From positions 1 to 39,427 of the forward strand of contig WFUF01000017.1 in assembly GCA_015485155.1 (NCBI GenBank): a stretch of 39,427 nucleotides of DNA, given 5' to 3'. Shown piece after piece: positions 7,243 to 37,717 of the stretch. Source of the DNA: Robiginitomaculum sp. Lineage in GTDB: Bacteria > Pseudomonadota > Alphaproteobacteria > Caulobacterales > Maricaulaceae. Under the pieces are notes generated by a model that saw nothing but the letters and a program-made list of their open reading frames with translations, did not search any database and was not told the DNA's origin. The position numbers were made by a program, and so were the translations under genes. Position 1 is the stretch's first letter, and each line of letters starts with the position of its first letter.

Positions 7243-7249
7243 AAGCCAT

Positions 7250-7278
7250 ATATTAGGTCTATGGATTGGGTTTGTCAA
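7250..7278 (-). promoter_or_regulatory. Transposase promoter, near-leaderless
   Basis: On the minus strand, TTGACA (7278-7273) and TAATAT (7255-7250) are separated by 17 bp, close to sigma-70 consensus. The expected start site, 6-8 nt beyond the -10, falls at or within 1-2 nt of the ATG at 7242, so the mRNA would be nearly leaderless. No ribosome site precedes that ATG. As no strong promoter was seen before the passenger genes, this one may drive all four. Confidence 0.7.
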
Positions 7279-7300
7279 GTATATATGCGCCAAAATTTAC

Positions 7301-20404: not shown

Positions 20405-22131
20405 TGCACATCCTCCGCCCGTACAATCAGTTTTGCAGGTGGAACCTTGTTTGGCGAACTGTAAGGAGCATTAAGCAAAGGGCCAATACGTTTGATTATA
20501 TTATGCACTGTCGGAGCCGCGTTCCAGCCTGCGGTTTCCTGACCAAAAGTGGAATCACCTCCTTGAGGCTCATCCAGTAATACGAAAACCATATATTCAG
20601 GCGATTCCCATGGAAACACCGCCACAAAAGATGAGACATTACGATCTCTGGCATATCCTGAAATTTTGGGATCCCACTTTTCCGCTGATCCTGTTTTACC
20701 GGCAACACCATATCCAGGAACATCAGCCCGGCGCCCTGAGCCTTCCAGAACAACTTCGCGCATGGCTCTTCTTACTGTACGTGATGTTTCTGCTGATACC
20801 ACTTGCTGTTGCGGGGCGTGCACATTTTTTTCCGGAGGTTGCACCAGCACTGTCAGGGGGTTTTTTCGCCCGTTATTCACTACAGCACTTAACGCTGCAA
20901 CAAATGAAAGCGGGGTTACTGAAAGCCCGTGTCCAAACCCGATAGTTGCGGTTTTTACCTGTGACCATTCAGAAGAAGCCATATAGTCATCGGCGCTGCC
21001 CTTCAGGTCAATTGGCGCTGGATCGAGCAGGCCATAGCTTTGCAGGTATTTGCGCTGTTTTTGGGGGCCGATAGCCAAAGCAAGCCGGGCTGCGCCCTTA
21101 TTGGATGAATGAACCAGAATATCGGTTGCGCTCATCGGACTTGAGCCAGGGTGAAAGTCACGAATTTCACGTCCGGCAATAATCAGCTTCTTGTTCACAT
21201 CAATGCGGATATTTTGCAGCTCCATTCCTGATTCAAGCGCCATTGCCATGGTGAGGGGCTTGAACACTGAGCCTAATTCATAAGGATCGGTTAAGGCGCG
21301 ATTGCGGCGAGTATCGGGCGATGCTGTGTTAAAATGATTTGGGTCAAAGTCCGGCAGCGAGGCCATTGCCAGAATCTCCCCACTGGGAATATGGGTGACA
21401 ATTCCAACAGCAGCAATTGGCTTGTGCAGCTCTACTGCCTTGCGCAATTCATCTTCCAGTGAAAACTGAACACGGCTGTCTATGGACAGGCGCAACGGGC
21501 TCGCATCTTGTTGCAGGCGTTCATCAAATGAGCTTTCAACGCCTGCTGCACCAATACCGTCAGCATTTACCCAGCCAAGCAAATGAGAAGCCAGCCTGCC
21601 ACCGGGGTAAATTCGCCGGGTTTTTTCCTCAAACTCAATGCCTGGCTCAGCAAGTTCAAAAATAGCCTTGCGTTGACGCGGGGTAACTGATCTTGCAATT
21701 CTGGCTCGTCCCTTTTTGCCGCTTAAGCGCTTTTTCAGAACCTCAAAGGACGAAACCCCATCAAGCCTTGACAGACGAGCAGCCAGACGAGCAGGGTCAT
21801 CAATGTCCACCCGTCGTACATATACATCCCAGGTCTTGATGTTTGCGGCCAATAATGCCCCGTTGCGATCAATCAGACGAGCCCGGGGTTGCACTTCATC
21901 CTTGGCCGCGACACGCAATGTTTCTGATTTTGGGTCAGCAAGTACCGCAAGATCAGCCGATCTTGCGATCAGAACAATTGCCACAGCCCCCAATGTCAGT
22001 GTCAAAATACTAATTCGATGCCGTGCCTTGCGCATCTTATCCTGAACATTGCTGTTTGAAGCAAACAACCGGGATAAACTGATGCCTTGCACATCAGCAA
22101 GCGGCGTCAATTCATCCCGTCCAGAGACCAT
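20401..22131 (-). CDS. ftsI: Septal transpeptidase FtsI (PBP3)
   Basis: A class B penicillin-binding protein (576 aa) cross-linking septal peptidoglycan with FtsW. It has a cytoplasmic tail, a membrane anchor (about 41-62) and a dimerisation domain. The transpeptidase domain has S288-V-F-K291, S342-S-N344 and K479-T-G481. All catalytic motifs are intact. The start overlaps the ftsL stop by one base (TAATG), and the end overlaps murE by 4 bp. Confidence 0.97.
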   Translation of the reverse strand: MVSGRDELTPLADVQGISLSRLFASNSNVQDKMRKARHRISILTLTLGAVAIVLIARSADLAVLADPKSETLRVAAKDEVQPRARLIDRNGALLAANIKTWDVYVRRVDIDDPARLAARLSRLDGVSSFEVLKKRLSGKKGRARIARSVTPRQRKAIFELAEPGIEFEEKTRRIYPGGRLASHLLGWVNADGIGAAGVESSFDERLQQDASPLRLSIDSRVQFSLEDELRKAVELHKPIAAVGIVTHIPSGEILAMASLPDFDPNHFNTASPDTRRNRALTDPYELGSVFKPLTMAMALESGMELQNIRIDVNKKLIIAGREIRDFHPGSSPMSATDILVHSSNKGAARLALAIGPQKQRKYLQSYGLLDPAPIDLKGSADDYMASSEWSQVKTATIGFGHGLSVTPLSFVAALSAVVNNGRKNPLTVLVQPPEKNVHAPQQQVVSAETSRTVRRAMREVVLEGSGRRADVPGYGVAGKTGSAEKWDPKISGYARDRNVSSFVAVFPWESPEYMVFVLLDEPQGGDSTFGQETAGWNAAPTVHNIIKRIGPLLNAPYSSPNKVPPAKLIVRAEDVQ

Positions 22132-22472
22132 TATTGTGACTCCGGCGACAAGGCGGCAACAGAAACTTCGGCAATAGCTGGCGCCGAGACAGCTCGTGCT
22201 TCACGCAACGCCTGCTCAGGGGTTCGTTTTGCTTCCTCAGTCATTGGAACCATTCCAAGATGTTGTTCAGCCAGCCTGGCCAGCCGGGCTGGGGACTCCA
22301 AAACCGCTTCTTCTTTTTCCAGCAGCAATACTTCATTTTGCGCTTCTGAAACTTGCGCTTGTAAATTTAACAATCTTGATTGTGCGTGCTTTACCTCATT
22401 CTTGACCACATAAAGGGCCGCGGCCAGAATAAATGCAACCAGCAAGGCAATCAAATTCAAAGCCCGGATCAT
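22131..22472 (-). CDS. ftsL: Cell division protein FtsL
   Basis: A small bitopic divisome protein (113 aa). Starting at ATG 22472 it reads MIRALNLIALLVAFILAAALYVV, a membrane helix right at the N-terminus. A coiled coil follows (about 25-65, KHAQSRLLNLQAQVSEAQNEV), then LARLAEQHLGMVP, typical of FtsL. An upstream ATG at 22559 would add 29 residues inside rsmH that look non-native. The chosen start gives the ATGA overlap with rsmH. Confidence 0.92.
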   Translation of the reverse strand: MIRALNLIALLVAFILAAALYVVKNEVKHAQSRLLNLQAQVSEAQNEVLLLEKEEAVLESPARLARLAEQHLGMVPMTEEAKRTPEQALREARAVSAPAIAEVSVAALSPESQ

Positions 22473-23458
22473 GATCTGCACTCCAGCGCTGTTAATCCCG
22501 GCACCGGCGCAAGCTGCGGCACCGCTTCCATCGGAGCGGCATCTGTGCGCACGGCCCACCGCAAGCGGGCAGAGCGCGCCCTGGGGTTGTTGGCTGTTTC
22601 GGTTTTTGAGGGCACAATCGCATTCCGCTGCACAAGGGTAAAACCGGGACAGAATTCCGCAATTTCAGCCATGGGAGAAAATCTTGATCCGGTGGAAGGT
22701 GCCTCGGCCCGTGCGCGCAGGAATTTTTTTACCAGACGGTCTTCCAAAGAGTGAAAGGCAATGATCACCAGTCGGCCCGCCGGACGTAAAACCCGCTCAG
22801 CCACAACCAGTAATTTTGCCAATTCGCCCAGCTCATCGTTTACAAAAATCCTAAGGGCCTGAAAAATTTTGGTGGCAGGGTGTATCCGGCCCTTCTTGGG
22901 GCCAAGCACTCGCTCCATAAGTTCTGCTAATTGTCTGGTGGTGGAAAACGCTTGTTCCTGACGGTATGCCACAATAGCCGCAGCGGCCCTGCGCGCTCGT
23001 TTCTCCTCGCCATATATTCGGAAAATACTTCGCAAATCCTGTTCTGATAGCTGGTTCACCGCGTCAGCAGCGCTGATCCCTGATTGCGACATTCGCATAT
23101 CCAGTGGCCCGTCACGCAAAAAAGAAAACCCGCGTTCGCCCTGATCAATTTGCATGGATGACACGCCCACATCCAAAACAATGCCGTCCACCTGTTGCCA
23201 GCCGCGCGCCTTTAAGGCGGTTTCCAGCTCAGAGAATCGCCCTGCAAAGAACGAAAATCTGCCATCATGTTTTTTCTCAAGCTTTCGTGCGGTTTCTCGT
23301 ACTGATGGATCTCTATCCAAAGCCAGCACCCGTACGCCCGCCGTTTGCAGTATTGCCTGTGAATAGCCACCGGCGCCAAATGTACAATCAACAATCTGTT
23401 TGCCAGCCGCCAAATCCAGCGCCTCCAACATTTCGCTTAATAATACCGGCTGATGCAT
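22469..23458 (-). CDS. rsmH: 16S rRNA (cytosine-1402-N4)-methyltransferase RsmH
   Basis: A SAM-dependent methyltransferase (329 aa, formerly MraW) for C1402 of 16S rRNA. It shows HQPVLLSEMLEALDL at the N-terminus, SAM motif IVDCTFGAGGYSQAIL, ALDRDPSVRE, GIVLDVGVSSMQID, and the C-terminal IIAFHSLEDRLVKKFL. The start overlaps mraZ by one base, and the end overlaps ftsL by 4 bp. Confidence 0.97.
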   Translation of the reverse strand: MHQPVLLSEMLEALDLAAGKQIVDCTFGAGGYSQAILQTAGVRVLALDRDPSVRETARKLEKKHDGRFSFFAGRFSELETALKARGWQQVDGIVLDVGVSSMQIDQGERGFSFLRDGPLDMRMSQSGISAADAVNQLSEQDLRSIFRIYGEEKRARRAAAAIVAYRQEQAFSTTRQLAELMERVLGPKKGRIHPATKIFQALRIFVNDELGELAKLLVVAERVLRPAGRLVIIAFHSLEDRLVKKFLRARAEAPSTGSRFSPMAEIAEFCPGFTLVQRNAIVPSKTETANNPRARSARLRWAVRTDAAPMEAVPQLAPVPGLTALECRS

Positions 23459-23982
23459 TACGAGCCTCTCCGATTCAAAAAATCAGCCAGTGAGGGGGAG
23501 CTTTTGACTAAACTTTCCAGGCTTTGGCCGCCACCAAGACGAGCCACCTGTTCCGGATCCTGCATCATCTGGGCCGCAGCTTCGCGCATATCAGAAGACC
23601 TGCGAGCATGATCTTCCACATTCCATATTTCAAAACGCGAGCCACATCCGACAAAAGCAGCCCTTTTGCCCAGTCTTGCGTGCTCGATAAATTCTTTGGG
23701 CAGGGTAATACGACCCGTACTGTCAAAATCCAGCCGCTTGGCAGCACCAAGAACAGCCACTTCCATTATCTGACCCAAAGGATCATAGCGGCCAAGGCGG
23801 GCAATATCGGCGCGGTATTGCTGCATAAATAATTCGCCACCACCTTCAAGATATGCACCGGAAAAATGCGGGAACACATAAATGGCATCATGAGGATCAC
23901 CCCGAAGCACCTCCCGGTAACTTGCAGGAACCGATACCCGGTTTTTGGCATCGATACTGTGCTCGGATGTAGAAATAAACAT
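23458..23982 (-). CDS. mraZ: Transcriptional regulator MraZ
   Basis: An AbrB-fold DNA-binding protein (174 aa), first gene of the dcw cluster and known to regulate it. It has two tandem MraZ domains: DAKNRVSVPASYREVL near the N-terminus and DSTGRITLPKEFIEHARLG in the middle. The tail to 174 is somewhat longer than the E. coli protein, as often in Alphaproteobacteria. AAGGAG precedes the ATG by 10 nt. Likely operators lie 59-88 bp upstream. Confidence 0.96.
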   Translation of the reverse strand: MFISTSEHSIDAKNRVSVPASYREVLRGDPHDAIYVFPHFSGAYLEGGGELFMQQYRADIARLGRYDPLGQIMEVAVLGAAKRLDFDSTGRITLPKEFIEHARLGKRAAFVGCGSRFEIWNVEDHARRSSDMREAAAQMMQDPEQVARLGGGQSLESLVKSSPSLADFLNRRGS

Positions 23983-24829: not shown

Positions 24830-25936
24830 ATGAAAAACGGGACCAAGAATATCAATCTGGCAATTGTCGGCATGGGCAATTGCGCCAGTTCATTGATTCA
24901 AGGCATTTACTATTATGGCCAGAAAAATGCCGATGGCGCTGCCGGGTTGATGCATGAAGTTCTTGATGGCTACCATCCGCGTGACATTCACGTTACTGTT
25001 GCCTTTGATATTGACCGTCGCAAGGTTGGCAAGGACATTTCAGAAGCTATTTGGGCCAAGCCAAACTGCACCAAGGTTTTTCATGAAGATGTGCCGCACA
25101 TGGGCATCAACGTATTGATGGGAAAAATCAATGACGGCTATTCCGAGCATATGGAAATGTTCCCGGAAGACCGTACCTTTTTGCCCTCCGATGCGCCTGA
25201 GCCAAGCAAGGCTGATGTGGTTCGTGCCCTAAAAGAGGGCCAGGTGGATGTTCTGACCAGCTATTTGCCGGTTGGCAGCCAGAAGGCTACGGAGTTTTAT
25301 GCTGAATGCGCGATGGAAGCAGGGGTCGCCTTTGTCAATAATATCCCGGTATTTATTGCCAGTGACCCGGTTTGGGCCAAACGCTTTACCGATGCTGGTG
25401 TGCCGATTATTGGCGATGACATCAAATCGCAGCTGGGCGCAACTATTGTTCACCGGGTCTTGACCGATTTGTTTGCCAAACGCGGTGTTCCTCTGGATCA
25501 CACTTATCAGCTTAATACCGGTGGCAATACTGACTTTTTGAACATGAAGAACCAGCTTCGCTTAAAATCCAAGAAAGTTTCCAAGACCGAAGCGGTGCAG
25601 GCGGTTACTGCTGAGCGCATGGTTGATGAACACATTCATGTGGGGCCTTCGGACTATGTGGCCTGGCAAAATGACAACAAGGTTGCGTTTGTGCGCATGG
25701 AAGGACGTCTGTTTGGTGATGTGCCTATGAATTTGGAATTGCGGCTTTCGGTTGAAGACTCTCCTAATTCTGCAGGTGTGGCCATTGATATGATCAGGTG
25801 CGCAAAAGTTGCTCTGGATCGTGGTGTTGCCGGCCCTGTGGAGGCTCCTTCATCATTTTTCTGTAAGCACCCACCTGTTCAGTTCACTGACGAAGAGGCT
25901 TATCGTAATACCGAGGCCTTCATCCAAAACCGCTAG
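24830..25936 (+). CDS. ino1: Inositol-3-phosphate (myo-inositol-1-phosphate) synthase
   Basis: A NAD-dependent cytoplasmic enzyme converting glucose-6-phosphate to inositol phosphate. The 368-aa length fits the short prokaryotic class, not the eukaryotic form of over 500 aa. It has the Rossmann start INLAIVGMGNCASSLIQGI, the central VDVLTSYLPVGSQKAT and FVNNIPVFIASDP, the catalytic-region GDDIKSQLGATIVHR, and LNTGGNTDFLNM. GGAG lies 10-11 nt before the ATG. It opens the five-gene cluster, so inositol phosphate is the entry metabolite. No inositol monophosphatase is present. Confidence 0.94.
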   Translation: MKNGTKNINLAIVGMGNCASSLIQGIYYYGQKNADGAAGLMHEVLDGYHPRDIHVTVAFDIDRRKVGKDISEAIWAKPNCTKVFHEDVPHMGINVLMGKINDGYSEHMEMFPEDRTFLPSDAPEPSKADVVRALKEGQVDVLTSYLPVGSQKATEFYAECAMEAGVAFVNNIPVFIASDPVWAKRFTDAGVPIIGDDIKSQLGATIVHRVLTDLFAKRGVPLDHTYQLNTGGNTDFLNMKNQLRLKSKKVSKTEAVQAVTAERMVDEHIHVGPSDYVAWQNDNKVAFVRMEGRLFGDVPMNLELRLSVEDSPNSAGVAIDMIRCAKVALDRGVAGPVEAPSSFFCKHPPVQFTDEEAYRNTEAFIQNR

Positions 25937-25980
25937 GTTACTGATGAATTTGCCCCATACAGTTCAAAGACAACAGGGCA

Positions 25981-26877
25981 ATGGCAGATAACGAGTCTGA
26001 AATAAATCCGGATTCACAAACCTATGGTAGACCTCTTTCAATCGAGGATGCTTCCAACCGGTTTTTAGTGCATCCATTATCAGACAAAATCGTAAAATTG
26101 GCGCTGCATCTGCGGATCAGTGCCAATATGGTTTCTGTGACGGGACTTGCCTTTGGTCTGCTGGCTGGCTGGTTTTATTTCAAACAGGGTAATCCAGTTT
26201 TTGCTGTGGCGGGATTTATATCCATGTTTGCCTGGCATGTTTTAGATGGTGCCGATGGTAAAATTGCTAGGGCCACAAAAACCACCAGCTCTTTGGGCCG
26301 CATTATTGACGGAATTTGTGATCATCTGGTGTTTGGCAGTGTCTATCTTGGCTTTGCATTTTATATCCTAACGCAGGACAGTTCACCATTTATCTGGGTA
26401 TTGGTTATTGCGGCGGCCTTTAGCCACGGAATTCAATCTGCATCCTATGAGGAGCGCAGGCAAAAATATCACCGCCGTCTTAACCGGCTGGATCGTGATA
26501 TTATTGCGGCAAAGCACAATGAGGTCGCGGGAAAAAAATCAGTAATTGCAAATATTTACGACTCCGTTCAACAAGCATTTTCCTCCCGTAACAGCCCGCT
26601 TGACAGCTGGATGTCGCAGCCTCAGCGCTCATCTTGTGATATTCAAAGGGCTGCCAATAAGACCATTCCCATGATTCATGCCTGGGGGCTGTTAAATGCC
26701 AACAATCGCACTTTCATGTTGCTGGTGCTGGCGCTGGCCGGAAGGCCGGAATGGTTTTTTATCTACGAGCTTGTCATACTGAACCTGTTATTCATCGCTC
26801 TGGTTATTGGTGAAGGCATTTTTGAAAAGCAATTGGTTGCAAAATTGCAGCAGCACTGCGAACAGGTAAAGAACTGA
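25981..26877 (+). CDS. CDP-alcohol phosphatidyltransferase family membrane enzyme
   Basis: A 298-aa integral membrane enzyme with the complete family motif D89-x2-D92-G-x2-A-R-x8-G-x3-D110-x3-D114 (DGADGKIAR...GRIIDGICD). Helices are evident at about 47-88 and 115-150 and near the C-terminus (235-285). A long polar insert (about 150-225, beginning YEERRQKYHRR) is unusual for plain PgsA-type enzymes. Such enzymes displace CMP from a CDP-alcohol. With ino1 and a cytidylyltransferase in the cluster, I infer the use of CDP-inositol with a lipid or inositol-phosphate acceptor. Classic PI synthesis from CDP-diacylglycerol is the alternative. Its stop shares one base with the next start (TGATG). Confidence 0.85.
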   Translation: MADNESEINPDSQTYGRPLSIEDASNRFLVHPLSDKIVKLALHLRISANMVSVTGLAFGLLAGWFYFKQGNPVFAVAGFISMFAWHVLDGADGKIARATKTTSSLGRIIDGICDHLVFGSVYLGFAFYILTQDSSPFIWVLVIAAAFSHGIQSASYEERRQKYHRRLNRLDRDIIAAKHNEVAGKKSVIANIYDSVQQAFSSRNSPLDSWMSQPQRSSCDIQRAANKTIPMIHAWGLLNANNRTFMLLVLALAGRPEWFFIYELVILNLLFIALVIGEGIFEKQLVAKLQQHCEQVKN

Positions 26878-28358
26878 TGGCGGGAATTGGTGACGTTCAG
26901 GATATCTTGCGCGGTGCCAAGGCTCTGTTGTTTGGCTTTGGTGGCCGAATGGTTGCGCGGATTGTTTTAATTGTTATTGCCAGCAGGCAGTTCGGCCCGG
27001 CAGAGTTTGGTATATTAGGACAAACAGCGGCCTTAACAGAAGTTGCAGCAGCGCTTGGCGTGCTGGGTTTGCGGCGCTCCTTGCTTGATATGCTAAGCTA
27101 TAATGCGGAAAACGGGATATCGATTGAACAGCGCATAGCCGAAGCAATTATTGTGGTAATGGCGGTAAGTGTGGCTATTTCCTTAGGGTTATTGTTTTAC
27201 TGGTCATATTTTTTTCCACAGCAATCCAGTTTGCTGCCACTGTTATTCATTGCTGTTCCGGCCATTGCCTTTACCGAAGTTGCCCTTACCGCTATTAAAT
27301 ACAAGCGAATAGTTAAATGGGATGTCTGGTCACGGGGTTTTACCGAACCCTGGGGGTTTTTGGCGCTTACCCTGCTATTGCTTAGTATGGGAATTATTGA
27401 AGGTGGACTGGTAATTGCCTATGTGGGCTCTGTTTGTATTGCGGCGGTTACTGTGCTGATTGGCCTGATCAGGTGTTACGGGATAATGCCGCTATTGCTA
27501 TCAAAACCCAGCTTGCGCAATTGTTTGCGCATCCCGAAAAAAAGCATACCTGTCGGTATTACCGATATGGGGGTTTTAATGCTGCGCAGGATTGATGTCC
27601 TGGTGCTGGCCATGTTCGTTCCTGCCTCCAGCGTCGGTCTGTATTACATGGTGCAGCAATTAGCGACCGTGCCCCAAAAGGTCAGTGCCTTGTTTGAGCC
27701 GATGATTTCTCCGGTAATTGCCCGGCTGCATAATAGGTTTGAAGCTGGTCGCATCCGCGCCAATCTTATAGGTGCCTGCCGCTGGGTGTTTATTATTCAA
27801 CTGGCCATAACAATTCCCATAGTGGTGTATGGCGATCGTTTGCTCTTTTTGTTTAATCCGGTTTTTGTCACTGGCGGGCTGGTTCTGGCTCTGGTGTTGA
27901 TTGCAGAAGTAATTGATGGAACCTTTATTACCACCGAAACCCCCCTGGTGTTTTCCAATCCTGGCATTCCGCCGATATTGCTTGTTATTACATTGGTGAT
28001 TGAGATTATTCTGATTGCCCTGTTTTCAAAATTGTGGGGAGTGGAGGGTGCAGCCATCGGGTTTTTGATTGCGTTAAGCTCTTTGGCACTTGGCCGGGTG
28101 TGGATGCTAAACAAAAAATTGCAGATAATTGTAATTAACCGCACTTATATTTTACCAGTTTTGTTTGGTGCAATGATGGCGGCCGGTTTGATGCTTGCTC
28201 GCCTTAGCCTGGATTCTGATAATGTAAGCATGACGGCGGTAATTGTTTTGTTATCGTTGATTTGCTACAGCTTCCTGATTAGAAAATTTGCCATGACCAA
28301 ATCGGATAAAGTTTTATTACGAGCCGTGCGCCAGCGCCGACGGCGCAGCAATAATTGA
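26877..28358 (+). CDS. MOP-superfamily flippase (Wzx/oligosaccharide-flippase like)
   Basis: A 493-aa polytopic membrane protein with about 12-14 hydrophobic segments. Its N-terminus (FGFGGRMVARIVLIVIASRQFGPAEFGILGQTAALTEV) and middle (LRRIDVLVLAMFVPASSVGLYYMVQQLATVP) are typical of polysaccharide/lipid-linked oligosaccharide flippases. It is coupled to the CDP-alcohol enzyme by a one-base overlap. In context it may move a lipid-linked product across the inner membrane. The substrate is inferred only. Confidence 0.8.
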   Translation: MAGIGDVQDILRGAKALLFGFGGRMVARIVLIVIASRQFGPAEFGILGQTAALTEVAAALGVLGLRRSLLDMLSYNAENGISIEQRIAEAIIVVMAVSVAISLGLLFYWSYFFPQQSSLLPLLFIAVPAIAFTEVALTAIKYKRIVKWDVWSRGFTEPWGFLALTLLLLSMGIIEGGLVIAYVGSVCIAAVTVLIGLIRCYGIMPLLLSKPSLRNCLRIPKKSIPVGITDMGVLMLRRIDVLVLAMFVPASSVGLYYMVQQLATVPQKVSALFEPMISPVIARLHNRFEAGRIRANLIGACRWVFIIQLAITIPIVVYGDRLLFLFNPVFVTGGLVLALVLIAEVIDGTFITTETPLVFSNPGIPPILLVITLVIEIILIALFSKLWGVEGAAIGFLIALSSLALGRVWMLNKKLQIIVINRTYILPVLFGAMMAAGLMLARLSLDSDNVSMTAVIVLLSLICYSFLIRKFAMTKSDKVLLRAVRQRRRRSNN

Positions 28359-28414
28359 GGAAAGCGTATCTTGATGATCTCTTATAACCCTCAGCTGAAT
28401 ATCCGTGTAGTCTC

Positions 28415-30856
28415 ATGTTGAAAAACGCTGCCAGAACCTGGTCTAAACTGGTCTGCAAATCAGCATTTTCTGTTTTGCTGGTTGCGATGATTGTAAGTGT
28501 CATTGCATTTGTAGAAGCAAAAAACATTTCTGTTTCCACACGGCTGGAGGCATTGATGCCACAGGGCGCGGGCAGCGTTCAGACCTTGAACAAGGCTCTG
28601 GGCAAAACCGGAAGTTTTGCCTCAATACAGATCGTAGCCCATTCCACAAATCCAGAAACTACCTTGCAGTATATCAGGGATGCAAAGGTTAGAATTGATC
28701 AGTTTGATTGGGTGGATACCAGCCAGTATTTTGAAGATGTTGATGTACTGGAATCCCATAAACTGCTGTTGTTGAGCATGGATGAATTGCTCAAAATGGA
28801 AGCAGAAGTAGATGCCGCCTACCCGAATTTAGTCGCTCAAGCCATCTCAAAGGAAATCGGCAGGGGGGTTAAACTTACCCTACGCAATGAAAACATGGAA
28901 GGTGATTCGAATACCGAGATTAAATCCCGGCTACTTGATCAGTTTTCAAATGAAGCCGCAGGCTCACAGAAAACCAAGCATTATTTTGTCTCCGAAGATG
29001 GCCTAACGGCTGTATTGGTGGTCTGGCCAAAGTCTGGACTGGATTCCCTGTCTGCGGCAAAACGCATGGTTGATGATGCTCACAACACCCTTGCTGAACT
29101 GGGCACCGAAGCCTATGGCGATGACTTAACGGTAGGTGTCGCCGGACGAATTGCCAACAAGGTGGCCCAGTTTGATTCCATCGTTGGTGATTTGAAGCTG
29201 GGTCTGCTTGGGTCGATCTCCCTGATCAGCATACTTATTATATTTTCATTTCGTTCCCTGGTGGCAATTCCAGTTATTTTTATCCCATTGGTGCTTGGAA
29301 TTTTATGGGCGATGGGGGTTACGTCTTTGATCATTGGCGGGCTAAATCTTATTACGATTTTCCTTACCCTGATCCTTTTTGGTCTCGGTATTGATTTTGG
29401 CATCCATAATTTTAGCAGATACCGCGAAGAAAGACGCAGTGGAAAAACCATAGAGCAAGCCATGGAGGTGATGATAACCGGCACCGGTTCTGCTTCCTTG
29501 ATTGCCGCTTTGACCACCTCTACCGGATTTTTCTCGTTAATGCTGACAGATTTTCGTGCCTTTACCGAGTTCGGGTTTATAGCCGGCAGCGGGGTATTGC
29601 TGATTTTCGTTTCCATGTACACGGTATTCCCGGCATTTGTTATTGTGCTTGAGAAGCTGGGGTTGTGGGATACTTCCAAGGCCGGCGGGCACCTGCTTAA
29701 AGCTCAAAAACAACCACGTGCTGGCCGCAAAATTCAACAAAAATGGGTATTTAGTGCCACTGGCCTGCTTATAGTACTGTCCTTGTTCTTTGCTCCGCAA
29801 ATTGCTTTTGAGCGCAATTTCAAAAACCTGGAAGCCCGCCAGCCTCTATCATTGCAAACAGCCAATAAACAAGTGCAGCAGGTATTTCCCGACGGACATG
29901 ATCGCGCCATTTTGGTAATTCCAACTTTTGAGGAATTGCAAAAGCTCGATGCTTATTTTAAGCAGAAAATAGCAACGGATACTGAAACCCCGACCATTAA
30001 AAAAGTCACTTCATTGCTGAATTTTGTTCCTGACCAGAAAGAGCAGGCGAAACGCCTTGAAGTAATTAACCGGCTGGAAAAAAGGGCTTCGGCCTTGCGT
30101 GGCTTAACGCCCGGCAAATATCAGGCAATTGATCGTTATTTGTCTATTGAGGACTTGAACGTTGCTGATCTTCCTAGCTCCTTGCGCCGGGTATATATGG
30201 GAGTGGACAACACTCCGGGCTATTTGATGTATATTTATAATTCAGTTTCCATGAACGACAGTGCTGTTGCCCGGCTGTTTTATGATGATGCAGCCATAAT
30301 TACCATTGACGACAAAACCTATAACAGCGCCTCGGAAGCCTTTGTTTTTGTTGAAATGCTGGCATTGATGAAGGCCGATGCGGTCAAAGCGATTCTGCTG
30401 GTAATTATTGTAACTGCTGTTCTTGTCTTTGTGTTTATCAGATCTGTTGTCGGCTCACTAATCGTGCTGGCTCCTCCGGTGATGGGAGTGTTGCTCACCA
30501 TAGGGTTTATGGGTGCATTTGGGCCTAAGCTTTCGATCATGAATATGGTTATCCTGCCTTCGCTAATTGGTCTTTCGGTGGACAATGCTGTTCATATTTA
30601 TCACCGCTTCAAGCTATCCGGAGCCAAGGCAGATATTGCCCAGATCATGAACAGCACCGGACGTGCTGCGGTCATTACCACACTAACAACCTTGCTGGGC
30701 TTTGGTGGCATGATTACTGCCTCCATGGGTGGGTTGCGCTCGATGGGTTTGCTGGCGATTATTGGTTTTACCGCCTGTTTGCTCATGACATGGACCTTGC
30801 TTCCGGTTCTGCTTGAGGCCTTTGGAAAATACACACGCAAGGAAAACTCCGCATGA
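28415..30856 (+). CDS. MMPL/RND-family transporter (HpnN-like, lipid export type)
   Basis: An 813-aa RND protein with the two-fold layout. It has an N-terminal helix (about 15-35), a large periplasmic domain, then helices with GLGIDFGIHNFSRYREERRSG at about 325-345. A second periplasmic domain is followed by helices with GLSVDNAVHIYHRF near 720. These paired D-containing segments are typical of MMPL/HpnN-type proteins that move lipids such as hopanoids between membranes. No hopanoid genes are near; the inositol enzymes suggest an inositol-linked lipid instead. The stop overlaps the next gene by 4 bp. Confidence 0.85.
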   Translation: MLKNAARTWSKLVCKSAFSVLLVAMIVSVIAFVEAKNISVSTRLEALMPQGAGSVQTLNKALGKTGSFASIQIVAHSTNPETTLQYIRDAKVRIDQFDWVDTSQYFEDVDVLESHKLLLLSMDELLKMEAEVDAAYPNLVAQAISKEIGRGVKLTLRNENMEGDSNTEIKSRLLDQFSNEAAGSQKTKHYFVSEDGLTAVLVVWPKSGLDSLSAAKRMVDDAHNTLAELGTEAYGDDLTVGVAGRIANKVAQFDSIVGDLKLGLLGSISLISILIIFSFRSLVAIPVIFIPLVLGILWAMGVTSLIIGGLNLITIFLTLILFGLGIDFGIHNFSRYREERRSGKTIEQAMEVMITGTGSASLIAALTTSTGFFSLMLTDFRAFTEFGFIAGSGVLLIFVSMYTVFPAFVIVLEKLGLWDTSKAGGHLLKAQKQPRAGRKIQQKWVFSATGLLIVLSLFFAPQIAFERNFKNLEARQPLSLQTANKQVQQVFPDGHDRAILVIPTFEELQKLDAYFKQKIATDTETPTIKKVTSLLNFVPDQKEQAKRLEVINRLEKRASALRGLTPGKYQAIDRYLSIEDLNVADLPSSLRRVYMGVDNTPGYLMYIYNSVSMNDSAVARLFYDDAAIITIDDKTYNSASEAFVFVEMLALMKADAVKAILLVIIVTAVLVFVFIRSVVGSLIVLAPPVMGVLLTIGFMGAFGPKLSIMNMVILPSLIGLSVDNAVHIYHRFKLSGAKADIAQIMNSTGRAAVITTLTTLLGFGGMITASMGGLRSMGLLAIIGFTACLLMTWTLLPVLLEAFGKYTRKENSA

Positions 30857-31593
30857 GCAGCATAAAGGACTGCCTGATAGTGGCAGCCGGGCAGGGGACC
30901 CGACTAAAAGGCTTAGGTGATTCAAAACCACTCATAGAATTAAATGGCATACCTCTGATCGAGCATGCCATGCGTAGCGCCCATGGTGCCGGTGTAAATA
31001 ATTTTGTGGTGGTTACCGGATATCAGAGCGAACGGGTATGTGAATTCTTAAAACAGGTTTCAGCTCGCACTAATTGGAATATCAAAACCCGTTTCAATCC
31101 GGATTTTTTATCTGAAAACGGCCTGTCAGTATTGGCGGCAGAACCGGATTTGTCCGGTGAGTTTTATCTGGCGATGTGTGACCATGTGGTTGAGCCTTCA
31201 TTGTATGATGAATTGGCCAAGGCCGATTTGCCATCAGAAGCCGTGGGCTTAGGCGTTGATTACAGGATGCAAAATCCAATGGTTGATTTGGAAGATGTAA
31301 CAAGGGTAGAGCTTGAACGGGAATACATAACCCACATTGGTAAAACCCTGACCAGTTATAGCGCATTTGATACCGGAATTTTCCGTGCCGGGCCGTCCCT
31401 GTTCGCAGCCATCCAGACCAGCAGGGAGCGTACTGGTGATTGCAGTATTTCCGGCGGTATGGAATTACTTGCCAGTCAAAAACTGGCTATTGGTATTGAT
31501 ACGGGAAATTCCGACTGGATTGATGTGGACAGCGTCCCAATGCACAAGCTGGCAAGTAGCTGGTTGCGCAAGCCAAATACAGTCATGACTTAA
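30853..31593 (+). CDS. Nucleotidyltransferase resembling CTP:inositol-1-phosphate cytidylyltransferase
   Basis: A 246-aa soluble NTP-transferase with the sugar-nucleotide signature A11-AGQGTRL and K25-PL. FVVVTGYQSE, SENGLSVLAA, the metal motif M108-C-D110-H111, AVGLGVDYRMQNPMVDLEDVTRV, IGKTLTSYSAFDTGIF and WIDVD follow. The DH motif, the VDLEDVTRV/IGK..L/AFDTG run and the WIDVD end resemble the cytidylyltransferase half of archaeal and Thermotoga IPCT/DIPPS enzymes, which make CDP-inositol from Ins-1-P. Its overlap with the RND gene and operon with ino1 support that reading. Phosphocholine- or glycerol-phosphate-type specificity cannot be excluded. Confidence 0.78.
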   Translation: MSSIKDCLIVAAGQGTRLKGLGDSKPLIELNGIPLIEHAMRSAHGAGVNNFVVVTGYQSERVCEFLKQVSARTNWNIKTRFNPDFLSENGLSVLAAEPDLSGEFYLAMCDHVVEPSLYDELAKADLPSEAVGLGVDYRMQNPMVDLEDVTRVELEREYITHIGKTLTSYSAFDTGIFRAGPSLFAAIQTSRERTGDCSISGGMELLASQKLAIGIDTGNSDWIDVDSVPMHKLASSWLRKPNTVMT

Positions 31594-32370
31594 GCTTCAG
31601 TGTCCTGTCTGTTGTGGTGATTCCCTGTTTTGTGATTCTTTATATTGTGCAAACGGGCGATCAGGCCATAAGATATAATCATCAGCAAAAACCATGATCC
31701 AAGCTTGCCAAAAGAGATTGCTTGCCAGCCATCTTGTTGTTCCGGATACAGCCAGACATTAGCAAAAGTGCTGATGTTTTCGGCCAGCCAGATAAAAAGA
31801 GCCACCAGAATGAAACCAAGCAATAATGGCATGGTGTGATATCGGTCAAGAATCTTGTAATATATGTGGGTTTTCCAAAACAATATGCCGGTGATTGCAA
31901 ACAAAATAATTCGAAAATCAATCACAAAATGATGACTAAAGAAATTCACATAAATGGCTATGGACAGAAGGCTGATTGTCCATATTGGCGGATGATTACG
32001 AAAGCGAAAATCAAATCCGCGCCATGCTCGGGCAATATAGCTGCCGACCGCCGAATACATAAAACCGCTGAACAAGGGCACATCACCGATTCGGATCAGG
32101 CTTGTCTCTGGATAGCTCCATGATCCCATATGGACTTTGAAAATTTCCATTATGGTGCCGATTATGGAACAAAATTATGACCTTTACTTCGGAAATTGTT
32201 TCAAGCCTGAATCCAATCAAGGAAATTTGAACAATAATGGCGCTGATGAATAAAAAGTCATAGCGTGCCAGATTTGCATTTTCGGGATAATAAGGTGCGC
32301 TTAATATAATCAGAGCCAAAAGCAAACCACCGAACAGACAGGCCCAGGCCTGCTTGATGCCAAATATCAA
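31590..32370 (-). pseudogene. DUF817 membrane protein, broken by frameshift
   Basis: Two overlapping frames together give one DUF817 protein of about 260 aa. The N-terminal part (from 32370, GIKQAWACLFGGLLLALIIL to ISEVKVIILFH) runs to about 32164. The C-terminal part (MEIFKVHMGSWSYPE...LGSWFLLMIISYGLIARLH) starts in the +1 frame at 32150. Dropping one base near 32163 restores H-I-G-T-I-M-E-I-F, the family's continuous sequence. The N-terminus also lacks an in-frame ATG; TTG 32368-32370 is the best start. It is a multi-pass membrane protein of unknown function, converging on the cytidylyltransferase gene with a 4-bp overlap. A sequencing error is the main alternative. Confidence 0.8.
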
Positions 32371-32788: not shown

Positions 32789-33249
32789 TTTTCAAAAGCT
32801 TCACAAAAAATCCCCCAAAATCACAAAATTCCCCTTTCAAGTTGTCTCTTGTGTGACTGCAATCCCTAATGAGGGTGCGGTCACTGAATTTAATTGTCAA
32901 AATTGGTGAAAATAACAGAATTAGAGTATTGCTTGCATCAAAAGTTTAGTGTTAGCGTCCGTCGCTGAACGGGCCGGTAATGTGCCGGTTCCACTTGTGA
33001 GACATCAGGCCAACTGGTGCGGCAAATATGGGGAGATAAGAGACGTGATTGTCTTTAATGTTCCTTATAATCACCCTGTCATCAGTACAGGCAACTTTTC
33101 CGTCGTTTTGGCGGGGTACAGGTTCCGGTTACGTAGTTAAACGTAATTGAGAATTTTTAGGCGGCGGGGCAATACTGGCCTTCGCCATGATTGATTTTTG
33201 TGATGCGTCCGTTTCGTCTGGCCGCGTTAAGGTTCATTTGGAGCACAAC
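32789..33249. other. Leader region of the TonB cluster
   Basis: No gene recognised. A TATAAT sits at 33066-33071 but lacks a good -35 partner. GCCGGT occurs twice near 32975-32990. No Fur box was recognised. Confidence 0.4.
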
Positions 33250-34026
33250 ATGACGAAGTTGAAATTCATGGCACGAGTTAGCGCTGCAGCGCTGGCTGTA
33301 TCTTTACTGGGCGGGGCCTCTATGGCGCAGCAACAGCTCACCCAGGCGGTGCGCACAGCTACACAATCCACACAGGCCGGCGCAGCCGCGCAGGCAAGGA
33401 TTGACCGTATTGACGACGCTACCAGCGATGTGGTTGGCGAGTATCGCGCAGCTTTGCAGGAAAAAGAGACTGTTGCCCTAAATGTTGAGCAGCAGCGTAT
33501 CTTTTTGCGTTCACAGCAAAATGAAATTGACAGCATTCGCAGTCAGATTGATCGGGTTGATGAGGTTCAGGATCAATTGTTGCCCATGATGTTGCGGATG
33601 ATCGGAACTTTGGAAGAGTTCATCGAGAATGACGTTCCATTTCAGTTGACTGAACGCCGTGATCGTATTCAGAAGCTAAAGGATTTGATGGAAGACCCGG
33701 CGCAGTCGCCTTCCGAGCGTTATCGCCAGATTATAAATGCCTATCAGATTGAAGTTTCCTACGGTCAGCAAAACGCATCTTATTCCGAAGCCTTGGCTGA
33801 TAGTGATGGTTCTGTAAAAGTTGAATTTTTGCGTATTGGCCGAGTGGTTCTTATCTATAAGGATCAGGATGGATCGCTAAAGATCTGGAATAACGCCAAG
33901 CGGGCTTATGAGGATCTGCCCTCTTCTTATGCAATGGATTACTCCACGGCTACCCGGATTGCCCTGGAGCAAAAAACACCTGAAGTATTTCCAATGGCGC
34001 TTCCCGGCGCTTCTAAAGCCAATTGA
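33250..34026 (+). CDS. DUF3450 periplasmic protein of a TonB system
   Basis: A 258-aa secreted protein, known family DUF3450. Starting at ATG 33250 (GGAG at 33240-33243) gives a clean signal peptide MTKLKFMARVSAAALAVSLL cut after GASMA. The mature part is a long coiled coil (about 45-130) followed by FIENDVPFQLTERRDRIQKL and a C-terminal beta-like domain (SVKVEFLRIGRVVLIYKDQDG). An in-frame ATG at 33187 would bury the signal peptide. DUF3450 genes regularly head ExbB/ExbD/TonB clusters. A periplasmic partner of the following ExbB-like protein is inferred. Confidence 0.9.
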   Translation: MTKLKFMARVSAAALAVSLLGGASMAQQQLTQAVRTATQSTQAGAAAQARIDRIDDATSDVVGEYRAALQEKETVALNVEQQRIFLRSQQNEIDSIRSQIDRVDEVQDQLLPMMLRMIGTLEEFIENDVPFQLTERRDRIQKLKDLMEDPAQSPSERYRQIINAYQIEVSYGQQNASYSEALADSDGSVKVEFLRIGRVVLIYKDQDGSLKIWNNAKRAYEDLPSSYAMDYSTATRIALEQKTPEVFPMALPGASKAN

Positions 34027-34046
34027 TAGTGAGGCGGAAAAAGAAG

Positions 34047-35405
34047 ATGAAAATGACGATGAAATCTCTTAACATAGCCGCCATTGCCCTGATCGGGGCG
34101 GTGGGTCTTGGTACTTCTGCGATTGCGCAGGGAAAACCGGTAAGCACGATTGATGAACTGATTCAACGGGTTGGCAAGGACAGCCGTGAAGCGCGCGCCG
34201 AAGCCCAACGCAGAGTCAGCGAGTTTGAGGCAAAAAGCTCACAGCAACGCAGATTGCTTGCGCAGGCCAAGTCTGAATTGCGTGCTCTTCGCGCCGCAGA
34301 GAAAAGAAATGCTGCCAAGTTTGATTCCAATGAGGCCCTGATTCAGGAACTTGATTCTGAGTTGCGCAAAGCTCAAGGGTCGTTTGGTGAATTGTTTGGT
34401 GCCGCTCGCCAGGCTGCTGGAGAATTGGCAAACACCTTTGATAATTCGTATGTTTCCGGACAATTTCCAGGGCGTTCAGAGGCTTTGAAGTCTGTTGCCA
34501 ATAGTACTACTTTGCCGGAAGTCTCCGAGTTGGAAAATATTTATCAGTCGATGATTTCCGAGATGAAGGAACAGGCAAAGGTCGTTACCTTTACTGGCAG
34601 GGTCGGTCAGGATGATAATGTTGAAGTAACCCGTGCCGGTGTGTTTTTGGCGTGGACAGCAAAATCTGCCGAATTTCTTGAGATGGATGAGGGTGACATG
34701 CTGTTATTGTCCCGTCAGCCTTCAAACAGAATTCGTGGTCTGGCCAAGAATGTCAGCAATGGGGATCCTGGCAAATTTGTTAAAGGCCCAATTGATCCTA
34801 CCCGTGGCGCTTTGATGTCCAAGGTGGTTCGTACTCCTTCTCTGATGGAGCGTTATAAAGCTGGTGGTGGCATTGGTTATACAGTTTCGACCATGGCTGC
34901 GATTGGTATCTTTATTGGTGTTTGGCGCTTTTTTGCCCTGACCATGACTGGCATGGCGGTTCGGGCGCAGTCGCGCCGGACAAATCCTGGTAATAACCCG
35001 CTAGGTCGGATTATGAAGGCTTATGAAGCTGCCAAGGACAAGGATCTGGAAACCGTTGAATTGCGCCTTGATGATGCTATTATCAAGGAGACCGGAAAGC
35101 TGGAGTTTGGTATTTCGCTGGTCAAGGTTCTGGCTGCGGTTTCGCCGCTGATGGGTCTGCTGGGTACGGTTATCGGTATGATTCAGACCTTCCAGGCTAT
35201 TACCCTATTTGGGGCCGGTGATCCGCAATTGATGGCTGATGGTATCTCATTTGCCCTTGTAACCACGGTGCTTGGTCTGTTGTCAGCTATTCCGTTGTTG
35301 CTTTTGCACAGCTTCTGCGCCTCGGCCGCTCGTTCGGTTCAGCAGGTATTGGAAGAGCAGGCCTCTGGCATGATCGCCGCTAATGCAGAAAGCCGGAGCC
35401 AATAG
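34047..35405 (+). CDS. Long MotA/TolQ/ExbB-family protein with periplasmic N-terminal domain (TtpC-like)
   Basis: About 452 aa, twice the size of ordinary ExbB. After a signal-like N-terminus (MKSLNIAAIALIGAVGLGTSAIAQG) comes a coiled-coil and globular periplasmic region of some 250 residues. The proton-channel part follows, with helices at about 276-300, 355-380 and 400-422 (ISLVKVLAAVSPLMGLLGTVIGMIQTF; FALVTTVLGLLSAIPLLLL). This architecture matches TtpC-type proteins known to assist TonB2 systems in marine bacteria. I place the start at 34047, not 34023: the earlier one overlaps the previous stop, and the later one has purine-rich AGAAG just before it. Confidence 0.88.
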   Translation: MKMTMKSLNIAAIALIGAVGLGTSAIAQGKPVSTIDELIQRVGKDSREARAEAQRRVSEFEAKSSQQRRLLAQAKSELRALRAAEKRNAAKFDSNEALIQELDSELRKAQGSFGELFGAARQAAGELANTFDNSYVSGQFPGRSEALKSVANSTTLPEVSELENIYQSMISEMKEQAKVVTFTGRVGQDDNVEVTRAGVFLAWTAKSAEFLEMDEGDMLLLSRQPSNRIRGLAKNVSNGDPGKFVKGPIDPTRGALMSKVVRTPSLMERYKAGGGIGYTVSTMAAIGIFIGVWRFFALTMTGMAVRAQSRRTNPGNNPLGRIMKAYEAAKDKDLETVELRLDDAIIKETGKLEFGISLVKVLAAVSPLMGLLGTVIGMIQTFQAITLFGAGDPQLMADGISFALVTTVLGLLSAIPLLLLHSFCASAARSVQQVLEEQASGMIAANAESRSQ

Positions 35406-35431
35406 GCTCCGGATAAGGCTAGGAGAGCGAA

Positions 35432-35962
35432 ATGAACTGGCTCAATCCGTTTGTTGCCCTTAATGATCTTCAGCAGTTTCTGGAGATGGGGGGTGATGTA
35501 CTGCTGATCATCATGTTCGCGACGTTTTTCATGTGGGCATTCATTCTTGAGCGACTGGCTTATTACCAGTTTGCCCACAAGAAAAATACGCGGCGCGCTT
35601 ACAGTATTTGGGAATCAAGATCCGATCACAAATCGTGGGCAGCTCATGCTATACGCGAACAATTGATCTCGGAAATTCGGCAGAAGACCGAACAAAACAT
35701 GTCTTTTGTAAAAACTCTGGTGGCTATTTCGCCGCTGCTTGGTCTGCTTGGTACCGTTACAGGAATGATTGAAGTGTTCGATGTAATGGCTGTGACCGGC
35801 TCAAGTGATGTTCAGGCGATGTCTGCCGGTGTTTCCAAGGCTACAATCCCGACAATGGCTGGCATGGTTGCTGCCTTGTCCGGGCTTATTTTTACCAACC
35901 GGCTCGAACGCCGCGGACTGCGCGAGACGCAGAAAGTGGCTGATGCGCTGGAAATTAGCTAG
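35432..35962 (+). CDS. exbB: ExbB proton-channel subunit
   Basis: A 176-aa MotA/TolQ/ExbB protein with three membrane helices (about 20-40, 90-112, 128-150). It has the conserved FVKTLVAISPLLGLLGTVTGMIEVF and GVSKATIPTMAGMVAALSGL. With ExbD it forms the inner-membrane motor energising TonB by the proton gradient. AGGAG lies 7 nt before the ATG. The short length fits ExbB2-type subunits. Confidence 0.92.
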   Translation: MNWLNPFVALNDLQQFLEMGGDVLLIIMFATFFMWAFILERLAYYQFAHKKNTRRAYSIWESRSDHKSWAAHAIREQLISEIRQKTEQNMSFVKTLVAISPLLGLLGTVTGMIEVFDVMAVTGSSDVQAMSAGVSKATIPTMAGMVAALSGLIFTNRLERRGLRETQKVADALEIS

Positions 35963-35974
35963 AAGGTGAACAGG

Positions 35975-36382
35975 ATGCGTAGACGTCACCGCGCAGAAAT
36001 TAGTTCAGACGTGGACATGACTCCAATGTTGGACATTGTGTTCATTCTGCTGATTTTCTTTATCGTAACTGCGGTATTTGTGCAGGAAAAAACCATTGAT
36101 ATGAAGCCGCCTCCACCACCTCCAGAGGATCAGGTTATTCCACCTGATGCGCCGCCGGTGATTCTTGTTCAGATCAATGACCGAAATCTGGTCTTTGTAA
36201 ATCAGACGCCGACAGATGTTCGTCGTGTTGGCCCGGCAATTCAGCGGTTTCTAGCTGATAACGGGGAAAGCTCAGTATTGATTGTTCCTAATGATGAAGC
36301 CGATCATGGAGTTGTGGTTGCAGTTTTTCAGGCAGCGCGGCTTTCCGGTGCTCCGGCCATGATCAAGCGTGAGGGTGAGTGA
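35975..36382 (+). CDS. exbD: ExbD subunit 1, with polyproline stretch
   Basis: A 135-aa ExbD/TolR protein. It has a short cytoplasmic tail, then D-MTPMLDIVFILLIFFIVTAVF with the proton-path Asp in the helix, and a periplasmic domain. A run of six prolines follows the helix (DMKPPPPPPEDQVIPPDAPP), unusual for ExbD. I prefer ATG 35975 to GTG 35966 because AAGG at 35963-35966 is well spaced for it. It lies 12 bp after exbB. Confidence 0.9.
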   Translation: MRRRHRAEISSDVDMTPMLDIVFILLIFFIVTAVFVQEKTIDMKPPPPPPEDQVIPPDAPPVILVQINDRNLVFVNQTPTDVRRVGPAIQRFLADNGESSVLIVPNDEADHGVVVAVFQAARLSGAPAMIKREGE

Positions 36383-36466
36383 GGTCTTTCATGCCTTATA
36401 ATGCCCTGGTTTCGAAAGTAATATGCGGTCCGGGCTCTGCCCAAAACCAAAGCAGGAGTAAATTTC

Positions 36467-36868
36467 ATGGCTAGACGCCGTCCTGAACAAAGTGAAAGTG
36501 ATGTGGATCTTGATATGACGCCCATGCTTGATGTGGTGTTTATCTTGTTGATCTTCTTTATTGTGACTGCGGTTTTTGTGAAAGAACCTGGTGTTGATGT
36601 GGTAAAGCCTACTTGGCAACAGAAGCTCGACTCAAAAAAGCCTTCGATTATGGTTGGTGTTGCCGCGGATTCTGTGGTCTGGATCAATAAAAATCCGGTG
36701 CCGATGAACGCGGTAAGAGCTGCCTTGGCTGCGATGAAAGCGGAGAACCCCAAGGCCGAAGGCACTATTCGCGGAGATGAAAAGGCCAATATCGGTGTGG
36801 TGCTTGATGTGCAGGATATGTTCATTGAGCTTGGCATTCCGGTAGAGGTTTCAGTAGAGAATGACTAA
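36467..36868 (+). CDS. exbD: ExbD subunit 2
   Basis: A second ExbD/TolR protein (133 aa) with LDMTPMLDVVFILLIFFIVTAVF and a periplasmic domain (KPSIMVGVAADSVVWINKNPV). It is clearly paralogous to the preceding gene but lacks its proline run (the linker is EPGVDVVKPTWQQK). AGGAG lies 9 nt before the ATG. The two copies may form a hetero-oligomeric motor. Confidence 0.92.
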   Translation: MARRRPEQSESDVDLDMTPMLDVVFILLIFFIVTAVFVKEPGVDVVKPTWQQKLDSKKPSIMVGVAADSVVWINKNPVPMNAVRAALAAMKAENPKAEGTIRGDEKANIGVVLDVQDMFIELGIPVEVSVEND

Positions 36869-37078
36869 CTGCCCAAGAATCGGCATATTTGGGGGGTATG
36901 GTTTAGTCGGATCAATCGAGTTTTAGTTGATTGGTGCGTTTTTCATAGAAGAGCATGTGGGTTCGTCCGCATGGTTATAGGGAGATTAGATTCAGCGAGC
37001 TTGTACGCAGTTAATGTGTCGAAATGCGTTTAATATACGGGAATATGGCTTGATGAATTTATGTTTTGGAGACGTAAG

Positions 37079-37678: not shown

Positions 37679-37717
37679 TCCGAACCAGATTCGAAAAACA
37701 TTCGTAAGGAAAACTAG

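Follow-up and report, generated by a model that had tools for sequence, protein, structure and literature searches.

A CDP-inositol operon of Robiginitomaculum predicted to make an inositol lipid, possibly on ceramide

Introduction

When a bacterial operon combines inositol-phosphate genes with genes for lipid-type transporters, the question arises which molecule receives the inositol. This question is raised by five genes at positions 24,830 to 31,593 of a 39,427-nucleotide stretch of DNA (the window) from a Robiginitomaculum species (assembly GCA_015485155.1, contig WFUF01000017.1), a genus placed by NCBI taxonomy in the Alphaproteobacteria, Maricaulales. The genome to which the window belongs comprises 2.39 Mb in 27 contigs. 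An original prediction, made from the letters of this DNA, held that the five genes form a candidate undescribed pathway in which CDP-inositol is probably joined to a lipid. Here we conclude that the operon would indeed attach CDP-activated inositol to a lipid, for which we estimate a probability of about 0.88, and that the acceptor in this organism would, at odds slightly better than even, be ceramide.

Results

All five genes lie on the forward strand. The first (24830..25936, 368 aa) encodes a myo-inositol-3-phosphate synthase (MIPS/INO1) that matched Inos-1-P_synth PF01658 with 118.7 bits (cut-off 27). A PDB sequence search aligned its residues 6-365 to the inositol-3-phosphate synthase 1gr0 (E 1.9e-119), and the best NCBIfam model was the mycothiol-type INO1 TIGR03450 with 453 bits, under its cut-off of 638. 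A cyclitol-phosphate synthase was rejected in favour of MIPS, the scores being 186 bits for 6k96 and 402 bits for 1gr0. The second gene (25981..26877, 298 aa) specifies a CDP-alcohol phosphotransferase (CDP-OH_P_transf PF01066, 49.3 bits, cut-off 22), which we propose to be a CDP-inositol:lipid, perhaps CDP-inositol:ceramide, inositolphosphotransferase. It is followed by genes for a MOP-type flippase (26877..28358, 493 aa; Polysacc_synt PF01943, 45.3 bits, cut-off 28.2), which occupies the same position in congeners, and for an HpnN-like RND/MMPL protein (28415..30856, 813 aa; MMPL PF03176, 132.5 bits, cut-off 20.5). The flippase gave a weak O-unit flippase-like match in NCBIfam and no PDB sequence match at E 0.1. 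The PDB sequence matches of the RND protein were the HpnN structures 6wu0 and 5khn, and its score against TIGR03480 HpnN was 262.7 bits, under the cut-off of 751.85. The last gene (30853..31593, 246 aa; NTP_transf_3, 48.2 bits, cut-off 27) encodes the candidate CTP:inositol-phosphate cytidylyltransferase (IPCT). Open reading frames (ORFs) overlap by one base at 26877 (transferase/flippase) and by 4 bp at 30853-30856 (RND/IPCT). The five identities, the common strand and the two overlapping junctions named in the original prediction were thus confirmed by concordant ORF, Pfam and PDB results (for the flippase, Pfam).

By sequence and fold, the product of 30853-31593 is firmly predicted to be an inositol-phosphate cytidylyltransferase, because its nearest solved structures are IPCTs and because relatives couple or fuse IPCT to MIPS. 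The PDB sequence search matched it to the A. fulgidus IPCT 2xme (E 1.2e-14) as well as to the T. maritima IPCT 4jd0, and the latter ranked first in the fold searches with both Foldseek and VIA. In a profile search, 2xme was matched over its full length at E 6.1e-26 and 4jd0 at 2.8e-21, whereas LicC reached 2.2e-10 over the first half only; a phosphocholine-type nucleotidyltransferase was rejected on these grounds, and the IPCT-like character proposed earlier was borne out. The conserved residues AAGxGxR, KP, NGxS, MxDH, IGK, DTG and WxDxD are present, and 25 of 26 columns are the same as in 2xme, the columns having been chosen from conserved positions of a bacterial set outside which 2xme lies. 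Against NF041135 the protein scored 96.9 bits, under a cut-off of 580 that was set for the fused archaeal enzyme. IPCT would probably form CDP-inositol from CTP and Ins-1-P.

The operon is conserved in relatives. Within the genus, the transferase was found in 7 of 18 genomes (the window's included), and in the rest of the family a strong score was obtained in 1 of 19, one weak match being left aside. All seven operon-bearing genomes of the genus keep the order MIPS-transferase-flippase-RND-IPCT as far as their contigs reach (that of G390 begins within the transferase gene and that of G396 stops within the RND gene). The same order occurs in G411, which belongs to another genus of the family and has the flippase and RND genes each split into two ORFs (L062). 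The order was read from loci L056-L062, with L056 and L059 truncated at contig ends. The five genes recur in a rearranged order in L077 and L079-L081, while in L078 no RND gene was found within the fetched stretch. The linkage in relatives that had been anticipated was therefore observed, within the genus as well as outside it. The nearest named records from a scan of public genomes were Robiginitomaculum metagenome assemblies, the IPCT of L066 being 96% identical to that of the window.

That scan was ranked by similarity, and counts over named loci refer to the best 80 of 142. MIPS, IPCT and transferase occur together in 67 of these 80 loci, several of the others being short contigs. Of the 73 loci that hold MIPS, 54 have it just upstream of IPCT or overlapping with it (mostly by 4 or 1 bp), and in three (L093, L104 and L115) the two are fused. 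Outside these are L114 with a very long ORF overlap, L124 with MIPS downstream of IPCT, L135 with the two far apart, and 13 loci of the flippase type, in which MIPS and IPCT lie further apart or on opposite strands. This fusion and coupling provides the best evidence for an inositol phosphate as the substrate of the nucleotidyltransferase. MIPS::IPCT fusions were also seen in a distant branch (L048:8971-11067, L049:2240-4135 and L052:8224-10155), the genomes of which contained no gene similar to that for the bacterial ceramide synthase bCerS at E 1e-20. A three-gene transferase-MIPS-IPCT operon, flanked by no annotated flippase or RND gene, is located on an 853-kb plasmid of Sphingomonas parapaucimobilis (L179:10056-12723), the only plasmid record retrieved at E 1e-20 with a Sphingomonas IPCT as the query. 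Since it is megaplasmid-borne in Sphingomonas, the three-gene core may be mobile. Isolates carrying the genes are found in Kordiimonas, Eilatimonas, Acidocella and Nitrospirillum, which makes the question directly testable.

The CDP-alcohol phosphotransferase has a complete motif (D89-x2-D92-G93-x2-A96-R97-x8-G106-x3-D110-x3-D114), the eight residues of which are invariant across a 44-sequence alignment. Outside this core, I21, E22, N26, H31, Q152, R160, N241, T244 and P256 are invariant in transferases of both locus types, that is, those with flippase and RND genes and those with ceramide genes. From these sequences the following activities and transport roles can be predicted. MIPS would convert glucose-6-phosphate to inositol-3-phosphate (which equals L-Ins-1-P), IPCT would use CTP to convert this to CDP-inositol, and the phosphotransferase would move phosphoinositol to a neutral lipid with release of CMP. 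The flippase may then carry the inositol lipid across the inner membrane, and the RND protein may pass it onward towards the outer membrane. Hence, the head group rather than the lipid would be activated, and the operon would both make and export an inositol phospholipid. The acceptor would most likely be (dihydro)ceramide, supplied by serine palmitoyltransferase (SPT), bCerS-like and CerR-like proteins encoded elsewhere in the genome. With ceramide as the acceptor, the product would be inositol phosphorylceramide, and neither an Aur1-type enzyme nor phosphatidylinositol would be needed to make it.

According to the accessible text of PMC11334938, the enzymes known to make ceramide in bacteria are SPT, bCerS and CerR, and their genes often cluster. 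In the window's genome, SPT scored 630 bits (cut-off 500) and is directly adjoined by the bCerS-like gene, and the CerR-like gene lies on a separate contig next to an AMP-binding gene. A bCerS-like gene was detected in 67 of 71 operon- or IPCT-bearing genomes and in 47 of 382 other Alphaproteobacteria, with a Fisher p of 1e-43 that is inflated by relatedness among the genomes and by the origin of most of the 71 in the similarity-ranked scan. The first number pools 22/23 and 46/49, obtained with two different bCerS-like query proteins and with one genome common to both. The only genome lacking the gene in the smaller set is one of 1.2 Mb (the IPCT of G396 lies past its contig end), and those lacking it in the larger set are a Kordiimonadaceae metagenome-assembled genome (MAG), a 1.6-Mb MAG and a Desulfobacterales MAG with IPCT fused to the transferase. 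Outside this count are L068, L073, L074, L100, L111, L116, L125, L140, L141 and L143-L145. In the class sample as a whole, 50 of 385 genomes had a bCerS-like gene; subtraction of three with window-type IPCT leaves the 47 of 382. In that sample alone, the gene was present in 3/3 genomes with window-type IPCT (the window's own included) and in 1/10 with distant-type IPCT. A bCerS-like gene is also present in all five tested congeners that lack the operon; ceramide synthesis thus goes with the genus and not with the operon.

In many relatives the ceramide genes stand beside the inositol genes themselves. An SPT or bCerS-like gene is present in 30 of the 80 named loci, and an LptG-like gene in 39. 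In the two nearest matches of the Alphaproteobacteria class sample outside the family, the inositol genes are accompanied by SPT, a fatty-acid hydroxylase and a protein resembling the GNAT-like one of L045 (in L044), or by an SPT-like protein, an epimerase, a hydroxylase, an LptF/LptG pair and the GNAT-like protein (in L045). The L044 SPT scored 495 bits against NF047599 (cut-off 500) on a 311-aa fragment. Based on similarity to the L095 protein, with the family checked, a PIG-L-like gene was identified in 22 of the 80 loci, 20 of which also hold SPT or bCerS. At L095:15850-17714 and at the 21 other loci, those of Acidocella and Nitrospirillum among them, a glycosyltransferase gene and a PIG-L-type gene (GlcNAc-PI de-N-acetylase family) lie near the inositol genes, and a bacterial glucosaminyl-inositol-phosphoceramide is a possible product.

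The ceramide region of the genus differs with the presence of the operon. In five operon-lacking congeners (L148-L152), five genes separate SPT from bCerS. In L149, Pfam identified these as genes for a DAGK-domain kinase, a 317-aa protein without a match, a calcineurin-like phosphoesterase and an LptF/LptG pair, and the intervals of L148 and L150-L152 hold similarly sized ORFs in a similar order. This arrangement resembles the Caulobacter ceramide-phosphoglycerate region as far as it is described in the accessible part of PMC11324152. SPT and bCerS adjoin each other in six of the genomes with the operon (L146, L153-L157) and, judged by coordinates, in the seventh (G390). Within the genus, the 317-aa (CpgC-like) protein is encoded in 11/11 genomes without the operon versus 0/7 with it, and the kinase-like (CpgB-like) protein in 10/11 versus 0/7; the genome of the window (G000) gave no match to either at E 1e-8, the queries being the congener and not the Caulobacter proteins. 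More widely, the 317-aa protein was found in 40/47 bCerS-positive genomes without window-type IPCT versus 10/33 with it (p 1e-6). A mutual exclusion of inositol and phosphoglycerate modules everywhere, as first supposed, was made less likely by these ten genomes, which comprise all eight tested close flippase-type genomes outside the genus (G411, G441-G446 and G454; RND was not seen in G442) as well as one Gluconacetobacter genome (G452) and one of Acidomonas (G495). The protein is missing from G447, G449, G467 and G474, four genomes with a more distant flippase in their loci. The exchange is thus clear in the window's clade and in most tested ceramide-locus types. It is not clear in Kordiimonas-like lineages, where both lipids may be made or the operon may serve another acceptor.

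We also considered the broader proposal that the transferase is a Kennedy-type inositol phosphorylceramide synthase, passing phosphoinositol directly from CDP-inositol to ceramide and belonging to a head-group cassette that could replace the phosphoglycerate cassette of alphaproteobacterial sphingolipids and that would be glycosyl-extended in some lineages; we would give this even odds. The cassette would have its own export partners, either flippase and RND or LptF/G, and in Acidocella, Nitrospirillum and others the glycosyltransferase and the PIG-L-type de-N-acetylase would yield a bacterial glycosyl-inositol-phosphoceramide. For organisms with the ceramide-locus type, ceramide as the acceptor has a higher likelihood than for the organism of the window.

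The alternative that survives best keeps the CDP-inositol chemistry and replaces the acceptor by diacylglycerol or an ether analogue, the product being phosphatidylinositol, as in the Rhodothermus marinus route. The R. marinus CDP-inositol lipid enzyme, from the 2015 work of Jorge, Borges and Santos, reportedly uses a dialkylglycerol acceptor, and the abstract is said to mention homologues in Alphaproteobacteria. The published precedent uses a glycerolipid, and the accessible text of PMC9246714 names dialkylether glycerophosphoinositol lipids and predicts diacylglycerol as the acceptor in Bacteroidetes. Several of our own observations likewise weigh against ceramide. None of the 14 named loci with flippase and RND genes contains SPT or bCerS (nor LptG). 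As both modules are kept in the eight close flippase-type genomes, ceramide may serve phosphoglycerate lipids there and the inositol operon something else. The exclusion within the genus may represent one event, since in the RsmH tree a fully supported branch sets the operon-bearing genomes apart from the others; the 71 genomes of the bCerS comparison are not independent; and the labels bCerS, CerR, kinase and CpgC stem from domains and gene order rather than from comparison with the Caulobacter proteins. Finally, a lipid consistent with phosphatidylinositol (PI)-dihydroceramide was reported for Novosphingobium acidiphilum, a strain devoid of both gene clusters known to the authors, one of which includes an NTP transferase and a CDP-alcohol transferase (PMC9246714, in the part available); its lipid may therefore come from other genes. 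A glycerolipid acceptor is nonetheless opposed by the bCerS-like gene in nearly all operon- or IPCT-bearing genomes, by the ceramide genes in the named loci and by the common invariant residues of transferases from both locus types. We consider such an acceptor less likely, if still a serious candidate, and retain ceramide as the favoured one.

Much less probable is the classical synthesis of phosphatidylinositol phosphate (PIP), in which the transferase would join CDP-diacylglycerol to inositol phosphate and the nucleotidyltransferase would have another purpose. The transferase does match the PIP synthase model NF045883 (44.7 bits) and the archaetidylinositol phosphate synthase model NF040950 (47.3 bits), but both scores are far under the cut-offs of 170 and 180, and a classical PIP synthase was rejected on this basis. 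PIP synthase binds inositol phosphate with an arginine pair (R153/R191 in R. salmoninarum numbering); the longest printed alignment of the transferase extended to profile position 147. Foldseek ranked PIP synthase (7.9e-3) above 4mnd (4.5e-2), whereas VIA placed the folds of AF2299 and 4mnd nearer. Moreover, the operon contains a dedicated IPCT, coupled or fused to MIPS in relatives, and no phosphatase. The window's genome encodes two CDP-alcohol phosphotransferases above the Pfam cut-off, the second of which has PgsA as its best match (105.2 bits, just below the model cut-off of 109.1).

A slightly poorer case can be made for polymerisation of the inositol phosphate, or for its attachment to a glycan, with export by the MOP flippase. 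The polysaccharide family of the flippase and its O-unit flippase-like match would suit this, but Pfam and NCBIfam detected no glycosyltransferase or polymerase among the five genes, and the LptG-like genes in relatives' loci suit lipids. Least probable of all is a soluble solute such as di-myo-inositol phosphate, which was rejected as the first choice: although the nearest characterised enzymes include the archaeal IPCT-DIPPS and two alphaproteobacterial loci carry an IPCT::CDP-transferase fusion with an inositol-monophosphatase-family gene, such phosphatase and fusion features are those of other branches, IPCTs of the solute-like kind branch separately, 9/10 genomes that have distant-type IPCT contain no bCerS-like gene, and the two enzymes of the window are separate. 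The two loci (L046:4932-8328 and L054:8916-12274) have MIPS, the inositol-monophosphatase-family gene and the fusion in a row, and look like an alphaproteobacterial di-inositol-phosphate solute set. No phosphatase was identified among the five operon genes by Pfam and ORF calls, the rest of the genome not having been searched for phosphatases. Together with the separate enzymes and the export-type partners, this favours a lipid over a soluble product, in agreement with the original prediction.

Discussion

In the R. marinus route, as predicted for the operon described here, an IPCT reportedly activates the inositol head group with CTP and a CDP-alcohol phosphotransferase moves it to a lipid. 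Set beside it by description, the present system differs in its acceptor, which is probably ceramide and not dialkylglycerol, and in its five-gene operon with flippase and RND genes. The interpretation of the locus as a CDP-inositol pathway thus stands with respect to IPCT, linkage and a lipid product, but it had missed the link to ceramide and can no longer be called undescribed: a route from CDP-inositol to inositol phospholipids appeared in print in 2015 (Jorge, Borges and Santos), and the accessible text of PMC9246714 cites Jorge 2015 for CDP-inositol as a polar head-group donor and makes a similar prediction for Bacteroidetes. The route as such is known, and the new part may be the ceramide acceptor. 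In the literature searched, which leaves out most subscription journals, we found no CDP-inositol:ceramide enzyme described for Proteobacteria.

In fungi, inositol phosphate is transferred from phosphatidylinositol by an Aur1-type enzyme. The same holds for the Bacteroides that have been studied, and ceramide phosphoinositol was reported earlier in Sphingobacterium spiritivorum and Myxococcus xanthus (PMC9246714, accessible text). The alternative Bacteroidetes cluster of that paper, as far as it is available, is like our operon in having an NTP transferase and a CDP-alcohol phosphotransferase near MIPS, with CDP-inositol as the predicted intermediate. It includes a HAD hydrolase, proposed to turn phosphatidylinositol into PI-dihydroceramide, whereas no such gene is among the five of the operon, which include transporters. 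In Archaeoglobus, IPCT and DIPPS (2xme, 4mnd) are fused; the window has separate proteins, no operon phosphatase and a lipid setting.

Within the Alphaproteobacteria, the closest parallel is the ceramide (di)phosphoglycerate pathway of Caulobacter crescentus, which, in the accessible parts of PMC12275187 and PMC11324152, likewise builds a sphingolipid head group with a CTP-dependent nucleotidyltransferase of related fold (CpgD, with 4JD0 as its best fold, as for the operon IPCT) and also has a CDP-alcohol-type enzyme, a flippase and LptF2/G2 transport genes. It differs in using phosphoglycerate instead of inositol and in requiring ceramide kinase and CpgC, the congener counterparts of which are unmatched in the window's genome. 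In our IPCT tree, where both PDB rows are long branches that meet and are placed with uncertainty, 11 loci within L016-L032 form a clade of IPCT-like nucleotidyltransferases with altered residues. All their genomes have a bCerS-like gene, in 4/11 cases within about 4 kb of the nucleotidyltransferase gene by coordinates, and these nucleotidyltransferases are probable relatives of CpgD.

If the ceramide acceptor is correct, the direct CDP-inositol route would constitute a second, chemically independent way to inositol sphingolipids, and it might explain how N. acidiphilum makes its inositol sphingolipid without the gene set known from PMC9246714 (accessible text). Sphingolipid head groups of Gram-negative bacteria would then be swappable cassettes with matching exporters. 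This would matter because the phosphoglycerate version supports the survival of Caulobacter without lipopolysaccharide, as stated in the available part of PMC12275187.

Genomic neighbourhood of the operon

Downstream, the last 4 bp of the IPCT gene are shared with a convergent DUF817 gene (31590-32150, minus strand), and positions 33187-39187 hold a row of genes for DUF3450, two MotA/TolQ/ExbB-type, two ExbD-type, TonB-C and TPR proteins. Upstream of the operon, the minus strand of 17553-23982 carries the division and wall genes mraZ, rsmH, ftsL, a penicillin-binding protein gene, murE and murF. The rsmH gene and the operon also lie near each other on one contig in G393, G398 and G399. An IS1595-type transposase gene is located at 6385-7293.

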